Positions 19,968 to 24,221 of a stretch of DNA of 47,857 bases are shown in pieces; within the stretch, counting starts at the first letter, position 1; each line of letters starts with the position of its first letter. The DNA is from Candidatus Bathyarchaeia archaeon (GTDB lineage Archaea > Thermoproteota > Bathyarchaeia > 40CM-2-53-6 > CALIRQ01), in the NCBI GenBank assembly GCA_038843675.1, contig JAWBRV010000010.1, positions 1 to 47,857 of the forward strand, given 5' to 3'. The notes under the pieces are model-generated. The model did no database searches. It had not been told where the DNA came from and saw nothing but the letters and a program-made list of their open reading frames with translations. The position numbers and the translations under genes are program-made.

Positions 19968-22448
19968 TTGGGCAAATATGGTGGATATATGGGCCGAATC
20001 CTCCGGGTGGATCTTTCCTCGGGATCGATCGAGGTAGAGGAGCTGGATTGGGAGATCGCGGCCAAATACGTTGGCGGAAGGGGCTATGCGGCGAAGCTCC
20101 TTTACGATGGCCTCCCGAAGGGCGTTGATCCCCTCTCCCCTGAGAACATCCTAGTATTCGCCACAGGGCCCGTGACCGGGCTCCCAGCGCCAACCTCTGG
20201 TAGGTTCTCAATATCGGCGAAGAGCCCGTTGACCGGCACCATAATGGATTCCAATTGCGGGGGATATATAGGGGTCGAGCTGAAGAGGGCGGGTTTTGAT
20301 GTCATCATAGTGGAGGGGGCCAGCCCCAGCCCAGTTTACCTCCTAATCCGCAACGAAGGGGCCGAGCTTAAGCCAGCGGAGCATCTATGGGGAAAGCTCG
20401 TAGACGAGGTTCAAGGGATGATAAGAAGGGAGGTTGGAGATGATAGGGTTAAGGTGGCCTCCATAGGGCCGGCCGGGGAGAATAGGGTCAGGATCGCCTC
20501 AATAATGGCTGACATCCATAGGGCCGCTGGGAGGGGGGGCTTGGGGGCCGTGATGGGATCGAAGGGTCTTAAGGCGATAGCCGCAATAGGCGATAAAAGG
20601 ATCGAGCCCGCTAACGAGCGCGCCTTCTTGAAGGAGGTCAAGATGGTTAATGAGGTGCTCTCCCGGAATCCACTGACGGGCGATACCTTAGGCAGATACG
20701 GCACTGCCTCCTTGGTCCATATAATAAACAGGGCCGGAATATTGCCGACGAAGAACTTCCAGCTGGGGACCTTCGAGGATGCTGAGGCGGTGAGCGGGGA
20801 GGCGATAGCGAAGAGCATCCTAGTCAAGAAGAAGGGCTGCTTCGCCTGCCCGATAATGTGCGGGAGGGTCACGAAGATAAAGGGCCCCGGCGGGGAGATA
20901 ATGAGCGAGGGGCCCGAGTATGAAACCGTATGGTCGCTCGGCCCTAATTGTGGGATCTCCGATATAGGGAGGATAGCCATGATAAACCATCTCTGCAACC
21001 TCTACGGGCTTGATACGATCTCCTTCGGCAATACGGTCGGATTTCTGATGGAAGCCCGCGAGAAGGGGTTGCTAGAGGTCGAGAAGCCTGATCTTAGATG
21101 GGGAAACCATGAGGCCGTTGAGGAGATGGTAAGGCTGACGGCTGAGCGAAGGGGGATCGGGGAGCTAGCATCAGAGGGCGTTAAGAGGATCTCGGAAAGG
21201 ATAGGTGGGAAGGAGTTCGCCATGCATGTGAAGGGGATGGAGCTCCCAGCCTATGATCCCAGGGGGGCGAAGGGACAGGGCCTCGCTTATGCGACATCAA
21301 ATAGGGGCGGCTGCCACCTCAGGGCCTATATGATAGAGAGCGAGATATTGAGCCTTCCGCGCTATTTGGATCCGCTGAAGAGCGAGGGGAAGGCCGGGCT
21401 TGTGAAGAGGATGCAAGACGTCTTCGCCGTCTTGGATAGCATGATAATGTGCAAATACACTACGCTGGCCCTGTTCAAGACCTTGGAATATGAGCCCTAC
21501 TTCTACGCCCGCCTCCTCACAACCGCGACGGGCTTCTATTTCGATGAAGAGGAGTTCCGCAGAGCCGGGGAGAGGATTTACAATATCGAACGCCTCTTCA
21601 ACGCTCGCGAGGGGTTCGGGAGGGTCGACGATTCGCTGCCGCCGAGGTTAAGCGGGACCCCGATGCCATCCGGGCCCGCCGAAGGCCAGATCATAGATTT
21701 GGGCCCAATGCTCGATGAATACTACGCCATCAGGGGATGGATGCCCAATGGCATCCCGTCGGACAAGAGGCTTCAAGAGCTCGGGATAATCTCGCAGCCC
21801 ACATGGCCGAAGCTCCAAGTCGCCTTGGATTTAAGGGATTTGGAGGAGGCCCTCAGGATAGCCGAACTCTCCCATAGGGGAGGGGCCGAATGGCTGGAGG
21901 CTGGCACGCCCTTGGTGAAGAGCGCGGGCATGAGGGCCGTCAGCGAACTCAGGAGGAGGTTCCCGTCAGCGACGATAGTCGCCGATCTCAAGACCTTGGA
22001 CACGGGTTGGCTGGAAACGGAGATAGCAGTCCTAGCGGGCGCGGATATCGTTTCAATATCCGGGTTGGCCAGCGATAATACCATAAGGGATTCAATCGGA
22101 TGCGCTAGGAAATATGGTGCTAAGGTCATGGTCGATCTCTTGGAGGTGAGGGATCCGATCAAGCGCGCAAAGGAGATAGAGGCGCTGGGGGCCGATTACA
22201 TATGCGCCCATTCAGCTATAGACGTGCAAAGGGATAGGGACCAAGAGATAGATAGGAAGGTATCCCTCATTGCGGACCTCGCCAAGTCGATATCGATCCC
22301 CCTCGCGGTCGCCGGAGGGATCAGATACGATACGGCGAGGAAACTTGTAAGGGCTGGGGCCAAGATAATAATCGTTGGGGCGGCGGTGACTAGGGCGGCC
22401 GATCCCATGATGGCGACGAGGAGGATCGTTGAATCGATCTGCTCCTGA
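19968..22448 (+). CDS. fusion: aldehyde ferredoxin oxidoreductase + 3-hexulose-6-phosphate synthase
   Basis: One uninterrupted 826-residue frame holds two enzymes. Residues 1-605 are a full-length tungsten-type aldehyde ferredoxin oxidoreductase: YMGRILRVDLSSG start, CFACPIMC with Cys291, Cys294 and Cys298 plus Cys495 as [4Fe-4S] ligands, GPEYET (315-320), GLDTIS (347-352), GGCH (447-450), and the usual C-terminal MLDEYYAIRGW and GIPSDKRLQELGI. Residues 612-826 are a complete hexulose-6-phosphate synthase barrel: LQVALDLRDLEEALRIAE, EAGTPLVKS, ADLKTLDTG with the D673-x-K675-x2-D678 catalytic set, MVDLLEV, VAGGI and VGAAVT. The synthase interconverts ribulose 5-phosphate plus formaldehyde with hexulose 6-phosphate; the first domain oxidises aldehydes with ferredoxin. 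TTG start with ggtgg 8 nt upstream. No hexuloisomerase or formaldehyde-activating enzyme is adjacent. Domain calls are firm; formaldehyde as shared intermediate is inference. Confidence 0.93.
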   Translation: MGKYGGYMGRILRVDLSSGSIEVEELDWEIAAKYVGGRGYAAKLLYDGLPKGVDPLSPENILVFATGPVTGLPAPTSGRFSISAKSPLTGTIMDSNCGGYIGVELKRAGFDVIIVEGASPSPVYLLIRNEGAELKPAEHLWGKLVDEVQGMIRREVGDDRVKVASIGPAGENRVRIASIMADIHRAAGRGGLGAVMGSKGLKAIAAIGDKRIEPANERAFLKEVKMVNEVLSRNPLTGDTLGRYGTASLVHIINRAGILPTKNFQLGTFEDAEAVSGEAIAKSILVKKKGCFACPIMCGRVTKIKGPGGEIMSEGPEYETVWSLGPNCGISDIGRIAMINHLCNLYGLDTISFGNTVGFLMEAREKGLLEVEKPDLRWGNHEAVEEMVRLTAERRGIGELASEGVKRISERIGGKEFAMHVKGMELPAYDPRGAKGQGLAYATSNRGGCHLRAYMIESEILSLPRYLDPLKSEGKAGLVKRMQDVFAVLDSMIMCKYTTLALFKTLEYEPYFYARLLTTATGFYFDEEEFRRAGERIYNIERLFNAREGFGRVDDSLPPRLSGTPMPSGPAEGQIIDLGPMLDEYYAIRGWMPNGIPSDKRLQELGIISQPTWPKLQVALDLRDLEEALRIAELSHRGGAEWLEAGTPLVKSAGMRAVSELRRRFPSATIVADLKTLDTGWLETEIAVLAGADIVSISGLASDNTIRDSIGCARKYGAKVMVDLLEVRDPIKRAKEIEALGADYICAHSAIDVQRDRDQEIDRKVSLIADLAKSISIPLAVAGGIRYDTARKLVRAGAKIIIVGAAVTRAADPMMATRRIVESICS

Positions 22449-22460
22449 GTCCCTCCCCCT

Positions 22461-24221
22461 TCACTCCGATATCTTCTTCAATTGATTCCTGTACATTTCG
22501 GCAATCTCCTTCGAAGTTGTGGCATCCTCCGGAGATTTATCGTCCCTCCAGTTCCCGGTGAACCGAGGGAATCTTAGGGCGAAGCCGCTGCCCCTCCGAA
22601 CCGAATCCTTAGAGCAGGTATGGAGCGGCGATAGGGAAATCTCATCCGCGGCTATCTCCATCACCAAGGATGGCACGAACCATACATCGGGCTCGATCTG
22701 GGATTTGACCCTGGGATGCTTATGATTGATGACGTAGGGCTTCATCTTCTCCGGCAGGGCCTTCAGGTCCTCGTCGGTGAAGCCGCTCCCGAGCTTGCAT
22801 ACGGTTTCGAATACATCCTCCTCATCATTATAGGCAGCCATCAGAAGTGCGCCATATGTGCCCGCCCTCTTCCCTCGCCCCATGAAAGCGCCGACGGGAA
22901 CCAAGTCGAACGTATCTATCGCCTCCGCCTTGTAGGACCTCTTGTACTTTATCCAAAGCCACCCCCTAGCCCCGGCTTGATAAACGGAATTTTCCTGCAG
23001 GCTCTTCACCACTAAACCCTCGCAGCCCAAGGATATCGCGTGCTCAAAGTAGGCCTCAAGCTCCTCTGGATCGCTAACGATCTTCCTCTCCGCGATCTTC
23101 ACGAAATCCGTCTCAGTCACTATGCTCTCCAATTCCTTCCTCCTAATTGGATATGGTTCGCGGGTTAGATCCCTGCCCACGTAGAGGGCATCGAAGGCGA
23201 AGAAGACCACCGGGATCTCCTCCGCCATCTCCTCGATCATGTACTTCCTGCCCCTTCGCTGGGAGATCATCTGGAACGGCATCATCTCCCCCGTGTTCGG
23301 ATCGACCCCAACGCATTCTCCCTCCAAAACGGCTCCATTCGACTTAACGGCCTCCCTAAGATGCGATACCACATCTGGGAATTGCTCTGTTATGTTCTCC
23401 AACCTCCTCGAAAATAGAATGATCGAGTCGCCCGAGATATGGGCTTGAACCCTGAGCCCATCGTACTTGTATTCTGCTGAGCCTCGCCCACCCAATTTCT
23501 CCAATATCTCGGATGGCGATGAGAGCCTCTCCGCCAGCATGGGCCTTATCGGCCTCCCGAGGATTATCCCGAACCTCTTTATGCCCTCTAGCCCCTCCTC
23601 GGCGACCTTCTTGGCCACATAGCCCAAGTCCGATGATAGGTTATACGCCCTCTCTATCTCCTCCCTAAACTCCTTAGTGCCCGCGAAGGCCACCGATAGG
23701 GCATCGAGAATCGTCATATCCGCGATTCCGAGCCTTAACTTCCCCAAGGCCGTCCTGACGATATATTTGCCCTCCTTCGGGGAGGCATTGTTGAGGAGCT
23801 TCGTGAGGAGCCTTATCTTCAAATCGACCGATCCCGGGCCCGTGGAGCGGGAGATCTTATCGAATGCATCGTAGACATCCTCCACGGTCAGTGCCTCTTG
23901 GAAGAGGATCGATTGGGACCTCCTCTCCAACAGGGCCTCAGTAGCCTTCCCGAGATCCCCGACCCTCCGATATAGCTCTTCCACCTCCCCCTCTCGCCTG
24001 CCCGATGAGGCGGCGATGGCCCTTATGGCGAGCTTCTCAGCTACCCCGAGCTCGATCCCCATATAATCGGGGCATATCTTTCCTTGGGAGAGATATACAA
24101 CCTTATCTATGATCCCCTTTGGCGTTCGCCTGAATAAATCCGCCAATAGTTCAGTCATCTCAAGCCTTTTGGTTGTGGCCTCTATCCTCTCATAAGCATC
24201 CGCTATGATCGAATACCTCAA
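22461..24221 (-). CDS. lig: ATP-dependent DNA ligase
   Basis: A 586-residue archaeal/eukaryotic-type ligase for nick sealing in replication and repair. It has the N-terminal DNA-binding domain (about 1-215), the adenylation motif I EYKYDGLR (nucleophile Lys252), motif III FFAFDALY, motif IV EGLVVKS, motif V WLWIKYKR, and the C-terminal OB fold with motif VI-like GFALRFPRF. Length and motif order match the family. It is convergent with the AOR-HPS gene (12-nt gap). Confidence 0.97.
   Translation of the reverse strand: MRYSIIADAYERIEATTKRLEMTELLADLFRRTPKGIIDKVVYLSQGKICPDYMGIELGVAEKLAIRAIAASSGRREGEVEELYRRVGDLGKATEALLERRSQSILFQEALTVEDVYDAFDKISRSTGPGSVDLKIRLLTKLLNNASPKEGKYIVRTALGKLRLGIADMTILDALSVAFAGTKEFREEIERAYNLSSDLGYVAKKVAEEGLEGIKRFGIILGRPIRPMLAERLSSPSEILEKLGGRGSAEYKYDGLRVQAHISGDSIILFSRRLENITEQFPDVVSHLREAVKSNGAVLEGECVGVDPNTGEMMPFQMISQRRGRKYMIEEMAEEIPVVFFAFDALYVGRDLTREPYPIRRKELESIVTETDFVKIAERKIVSDPEELEAYFEHAISLGCEGLVVKSLQENSVYQAGARGWLWIKYKRSYKAEAIDTFDLVPVGAFMGRGKRAGTYGALLMAAYNDEEDVFETVCKLGSGFTDEDLKALPEKMKPYVINHKHPRVKSQIEPDVWFVPSLVMEIAADEISLSPLHTCSKDSVRRGSGFALRFPRFTGNWRDDKSPEDATTSKEIAEMYRNQLKKISE

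Follow-up and report, generated by a model that had tools for sequence, protein, structure and literature searches.

A gene joining aldehyde:ferredoxin oxidoreductase to 3-hexulose-6-phosphate synthase in Bathyarchaeia: a candidate enzyme for pentose-phosphate synthesis with a built-in formaldehyde sink

In archaea lacking transketolase, the reverse RuMP pathway, formed by phosphohexuloisomerase (PHI) and 3-hexulose-6-phosphate synthase (HPS), is thought to make ribulose 5-phosphate with the release of formaldehyde (PMC5241800). The pathway has been proposed in Bathyarchaeia as well (PMC8407382). HPS is already known in fused form with PHI, with Fae and with RraA/MenG (PMC5241800, PMC11237513), and the Fae-HPS fusion was interpreted as a means of formaldehyde capture (PMC5241800). 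A survey of archaeal fusions names, in its main text, Hps-Phi alone for ribose synthesis (PMC11237513). A fusion of HPS with an aldehyde:ferredoxin oxidoreductase (AOR) was not found described in the open literature searched; this agrees with the original prediction, whose author was aware of no such fusion.

The gene studied here was located in a window of 47,857 nucleotides, which is the whole stretch of DNA analysed, from the draft genome of a Candidatus Bathyarchaeia archaeon. Its features are the following:

19968..22448, + strand: fused AOR-HPS gene, TTG start, 826 codons and a stop, alternative in-frame ATG at 19989; the full-length homologues are intact
19968..21791, + strand: AOR domain, residues 1-608, assigned from family matches and Foldseek
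21792..21803, + strand: very short linker, SQPT, residues 609-612, between the ends of the AOR and HPS matches
21804..22445, + strand: HPS domain, residues 613-826, assigned from profile and structure matches

From the TTG at 19968 the frame stays open up to a stop codon whose last base is 22448, resulting in a protein of 826 amino acids. The Pfam domains determined in this protein were AFOR_N at 9-208 (E 7e-81), AFOR_C at 224-607 (E 1.7e-145) and OMPdecase/HUMPS at 614-820 (E 5.8e-33). Both AFOR domains were complete, covering profile positions 1-198 of 199 and 3-385 of 385, respectively. The AOR family match stops at 607-608 and the HPS match starts at 613-614. The claim that both halves lie complete in one frame, at the coordinates given with it, was thus borne out. 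The original prediction had pointed to the region near 21,790-21,800 as the place where a stop or a frameshift would break the fusion; none was present there in the window sequence or in the homologous junctions. Two congeneric species keep the frame across the junction GIISQPTWPKLQVALDL, and so, with changes, do further Bathyarchaeia and Methanomethylicota genomes. The dN/dS values between the congeners were about 0.09 for the AOR half and about 0.04 for the HPS half, which corresponds to purifying selection on both, and the fusion is therefore no chance juxtaposition.

The two other species of the source genus carry the fusion with 90-92% identity, and it was detected also in other Bathyarchaeia of the families f6, f9, f12 and f18. 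In the phylum-wide sample, the fusion was present in 30 of the 398 genomes, the 30 being spread over 8 families; it was either complete or truncated where a contig ends. The named records belong to Hecatellales, Methanomethylicota, Nezhaarchaeota, one Thermoprotei archaeon and one Hadesarchaeon. The merging of two adjacent genes by an error of assembly or frame was considered, as the source assembly is a draft in 20 contigs, and was rejected as extremely improbable: the identical single frame recurs in the 30 genomes of the sample and in independent assemblies, and the low dN/dS extends across both halves.

In the AOR tree of 137 rows, which included 84 sampled unfused AORs, all the fused AOR domains grouped in a single clade (SH-aLRT 97) that contained no unfused AOR. 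The fused HPS domains fell into three groups in the HPS tree, where three changes of the AOR-HPS label were needed; the AU test did not reject a single clade of fused HPS domains (p 0.356). We do not claim repeated fusion, because this test allows one HPS clade and the fused domains are a single clade in the AOR tree. The simplest reading of these trees is one old fusion which would have spread later by descent and transfer, and domain replacement may have taken part in its history.

The solved sequence closest to the AOR half was that of P. furiosus AOR, with 602 bits, compared with 372 bits for the P. furiosus formaldehyde:ferredoxin oxidoreductase (FOR). The Foldseek comparison of the same half resulted in TMt values of 0.97 with 1aor and 0.92 with 1b25. 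The [4Fe-4S] cysteines C291, C294, C298 and C495 align with C288, C291, C295 and C494 of P. furiosus AOR and were kept in every fused row covering those positions. Glu332 of P. furiosus AOR, a ligand of the inter-subunit iron, is replaced by Met338 in the fused protein. The second-shell Thr, Glu, Tyr and His of the aldehyde-oxidising members were defined from PMC12096430, and T246, E319, Y429 and H450 of the fused protein correspond to T243, E313, Y427 and H448 of P. furiosus AOR. By these residues, the site looks intact as that of an AOR-like aldehyde oxidoreductase, and it would presumably hold tungsten. Formaldehyde would be the substrate judging from the fusion partner and the genome context. 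A high affinity of the AOR half for formaldehyde is not to be assumed, since the substrates of the P. furiosus "formaldehyde" oxidoreductase are probably different short aldehydes, glutaric semialdehyde for example (PMC12096430).

For the HPS half, the RuMP_HxlA profile (TIGR03128) matched residues 616-823 with 191.9 bits in the whole protein. In the genome search the HPS domain of the window scored 196.1 bits, just below the equivalog cut-off of 200 bits, and many other fused members scored 203-217 bits. The best solved match was the HPS part of a bifunctional HPS/PHI, followed by the stand-alone HPS 3ajx. The catalytic residues of the HUMPS/OMPDC superfamily, D621, E644, D673, K675, D678 and H748, were present in 31 of 31 fused rows, with D673, K675 and D678 arranged in the motif D673-x-K675-x2-D678. 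These last three residues and the four cysteines of the AOR half had all been numbered correctly in the original prediction. When both halves were considered together, the catalytic residues of the 31 fused sequences from varied lineages were conserved wherever covered, and the only gaps fell in two rows that are truncated. The specificity positions D723, I751 and A782 are of the HPS type; KGPDC has E112, R139 and T169. Positions 112, 139 and 169 are taken here as the specificity sites of KGPDC, in view of the KGPDC mutants named in PDB entries 1xbx and 1xbz. The specificity residues point to HPS rather than KGPDC, and the catalytic site looks intact. The AlphaFold model of the fused protein had a mean pLDDT of 94.7 and a pTM of 0.93, and the pLDDT remained at about 94-95 through the junction with no drop. 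As the second domain accounts for one quarter of the chain length, so high a pTM suggests that the two predicted domains are packed in a defined way.

The relation between the fusion and Fae was followed in the relatives. The bathyarchaeial relatives mostly carry the Fae-HPS fusion. In the phylum sample, Fae was found in 55 of 55 class members with HPS but without the AOR-HPS fusion and in none of the 3 with both. The contrast over these 58 genomes gave a Fisher p of 3e-5, a value which ignores relatedness, rests on few independent lineages, pools the Fae-HPS and DHDPS-Fae genes in the count and includes draft-genome absences that can be gaps. In a second draw, five further fused genomes were without Fae (G002, G045, G048, G055, G071). 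A divergent fused genome of that draw, G007, had a DHDPS-type Fae match with a stop (G007:C10:2384-2857, a frame with one TGA), and G050 and G067, both incomplete, had HPS-RraA but lacked Fae as well as the fusion. Because the bathyarchaeial relatives without the fusion mostly have Fae-HPS, AOR appears to stand in place of Fae in the fused Bathyarchaeia. Outside this pattern, a stand-alone Fae was present in addition to the fusion in G189, G204, G209 and G285 (family f53), and a second HPS, of the HPS-RraA type, in G045, G055, G166, G204, G285 and G296. The N half of transketolase was detected in two fused genomes (G103, G279). Since the H4MPT cyclohydrolase (MCH) was found in 10 of the 23 fused genomes tested and a stand-alone Fae in some, missing tetrahydromethanopterin is no general condition for the fusion.

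Two further gene arrangements were observed during these searches. In a second Fae fusion of Bathyarchaeia, Fae comes after an aldolase domain of the DHDPS family, and the whole protein has about 495 amino acids; the copies read were L226:1552-3000 (G095:C31) and L227:2-1339 (G398:C2), and ORFs of similar size occur in many genomes. The aldolase may release or consume formaldehyde, and would be a further case of fusion to a formaldehyde-handling enzyme. At G269:C20:4387-6201, an AOR match lies within an open frame of 942 amino acids, possibly another AOR fusion.

The AOR half could also oxidise another aldehyde or serve as a broad detoxifier, in which case its fusion to HPS would serve only stability, co-expression or assembly. 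AORs sensu stricto are broad in substrates and P. furiosus FOR probably does not act mainly on formaldehyde (PMC12096430), and the source genome holds three AORs besides the fused one. This explanation is nevertheless considered unlikely: in the 137-row tree the AOR clade occurs fused to HPS only, archaeal HPS is otherwise fused to Fae or PHI, which serve the same formaldehyde/hexulose step (PMC5241800, PMC11237513), and the fusion holds the place of Fae-HPS in Bathyarchaeia.

In the source genome, the fused HPS was the sole HPS. PHI, proposed earlier as something to look for elsewhere in the genome, was found as a separate gene (G000:C4:24681-25241) with 187 bits against a cut-off of 160. Transketolase, Fae and MCH were not found in this draft of 20 contigs, where gaps are possible. 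Two adjoining PurP-like genes (formate-dependent AICAR formyltransferase) were present as well. This tandem lies at G000:C2:99584-101763 (L225:4585-6764), beside purC. In archaea, free formate is a substrate of PurP and PurT (PMC10025317); formate-dependent activity has not been shown for all PurP-like proteins, and one gene of such pairs may have another activity (PMC3261824). Three genes of the RuBisCO large family were noted separately (G000:C1:68960-69793, G000:C7:59835-60635, G000:C4:36401-37237); the last of these is about 11 kb from PHI, falls below the type III cut-off and scores nearly equally to 2,3-diketo-5-methylthiopentyl-1-phosphate enolase.

The neighbourhood of the fused gene was searched for operon clues, and neither the window nor the recurring neighbours gave a functional link. 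In the window, a Gfo/Idh/MocA oxidoreductase lies upstream and an ATP-dependent DNA ligase (22461-24221) is convergent downstream. The same ligase recurs beside the fusion in two families, including f9 (Hecatellales) with 59-60% identity. Another recurring neighbour is a protein of 173 amino acids, which looks nitroreductase-like to us. In the window, no genes for formate use, tungsten cofactor or ferredoxin were found adjoining the fusion, and across the clades no conserved functional neighbour was found.

The product of the fused gene is probably a bifunctional enzyme that makes pentose phosphate safely, with AOR serving as the formaldehyde sink in place of Fae. The separate PHI would convert fructose 6-phosphate to hexulose 6-phosphate, from which the C-terminal HPS would produce ribulose 5-phosphate and formaldehyde. 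The N-terminal AOR would then oxidise formaldehyde to formate, passing two electrons to ferredoxin and filling the role that Fae, with tetrahydromethanopterin, holds in the Fae-HPS fusions. The AOR step would pull the reversible HPS reaction to ribulose 5-phosphate, avert toxicity and recover low-potential electrons. Such oxidation needs no pterin and should be favourable with ferredoxin, because the formate/formaldehyde potential is low. The formate could then enter the formate-dependent purine synthesis by PurP, and in that case nucleotide synthesis might draw on both products. The ribose-synthesis direction is favoured because the fused HPS is the sole HPS of the source genome, PHI is present, and transketolase, Fae and MCH were undetected; a net flow toward ribulose 5-phosphate is what we infer.

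The original prediction of a formaldehyde-centred bifunctional enzyme gained support from this genome context, with formaldehyde as the presumed substrate. Two directions had been offered in it. The release of ribulose 5-phosphate with AOR as the sink agrees with the sole HPS, the PHI and the lack of detected Fae, transketolase and MCH; formate assimilation stayed a possibility only, being energetically harder and without a genomic pointer. In formate assimilation, AOR would reduce formate to formaldehyde with reduced ferredoxin, HPS would fix it on ribulose 5-phosphate, and PHI would convert the product to fructose 6-phosphate. The two activities can run either way, acids are reduced by AORs when low-potential donors are supplied (PMC9295118, PMC12727526), and a route from formate through formaldehyde to RuMP was proposed from the genome of Desulfurococcus amylolyticus, with a different reductase (PMC7143981). 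However, the formate/formaldehyde potential is very low, from -650 to -450 mV as quoted in PMC7143981, lasting fixation needs the regeneration of ribulose 5-phosphate, for which no transketolase was found, and the fused HPS as the sole detected route to ribulose 5-phosphate requires the opposite net direction. We regard assimilation as quite improbable. Scavenging of external formaldehyde, with HPS-PHI fixing and AOR oxidising it as parallel sinks, is very improbable. Both enzymes could consume formaldehyde, and the co-occurrence of the separate enzymes was so read in Brockarchaeota (PMC8065059), but pentose synthesis would be left unexplained in genomes without transketolase, and two competing sinks profit little from fusion.

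Returning to pentose synthesis with AOR as the sink, a stronger form of it would be a dedicated ancient enzyme in which formaldehyde passes between the two sites without release, coupling pentose synthesis to redox in Fae-less archaea. We put this forward tentatively, holding it somewhat doubtful. If channelling were true, each ribulose 5-phosphate made would also yield one formate, for purine synthesis, and two electrons on ferredoxin. The reverse RuMP steps set free one formaldehyde for every pentose, and the fusion is a candidate for handling it in archaea that make the sugars of RNA and DNA without Fae and tetrahydromethanopterin. It also hints, on genetic grounds, that one AOR clade has formaldehyde as its true substrate. 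Through it, pentose synthesis, the reduction of ferredoxin and the supply of formate for purines may be connected in the widespread uncultured Bathyarchaeia, Methanomethylicota and Nezhaarchaeota, a connection that can be tested. In one-carbon engineering, AOR-HPS could serve as a natural design for formaldehyde handling.

Compared with P. furiosus AOR (1aor) and the AORs sensu stricto, the fused AOR has the complete domain, the cluster cysteines and all four second-shell residues, whereas it forms a separate clade that is always HPS-fused in the sample. P. furiosus FOR (1b25) shares the fold and carries the name of the reaction proposed for the AOR half; it is more distant in sequence, however, and its native substrate is probably not formaldehyde. 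The HPS-PHI fusion of Pyrococcus and Thermococcus (NF041755; PDB 9lj9) belongs to the same pathway and is the best solved match of the HPS half, with 219 bits and 51% identity in the fold match. Its partner is an isomerase on the C-terminal side, while PHI is a separate gene in the source genome; no PHI domain was found in the fused chain, which ends after HPS. The HPS-RraA/MenG fusion (NF005442; Methanospirillum hungatei, PMC5241800) likewise joins HPS to another domain and gave the best NCBIfam score for the HPS half, but its RraA-like domain is of unknown role and has no redox centre, and it coexists with AOR-HPS in some genomes. The Fae-HPS fusion of methanogens and Bathyarchaeia (NF009833; PMC5241800) has HPS at the C-terminal side of a formaldehyde-removing enzyme and the same proposed role in providing ribose 5-phosphate. 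In contrast, Fae condenses formaldehyde with tetrahydromethanopterin, whereas the AOR here would work by redox with ferredoxin and formate; the fused HPS lies on a different branch of the HPS tree, and no Fae domain was matched in the fused protein by Pfam or in the source genome. HPS fused to a formaldehyde-consuming enzyme is thus already known, and the novelty would be the predicted redox-active AOR as the partner of HPS.
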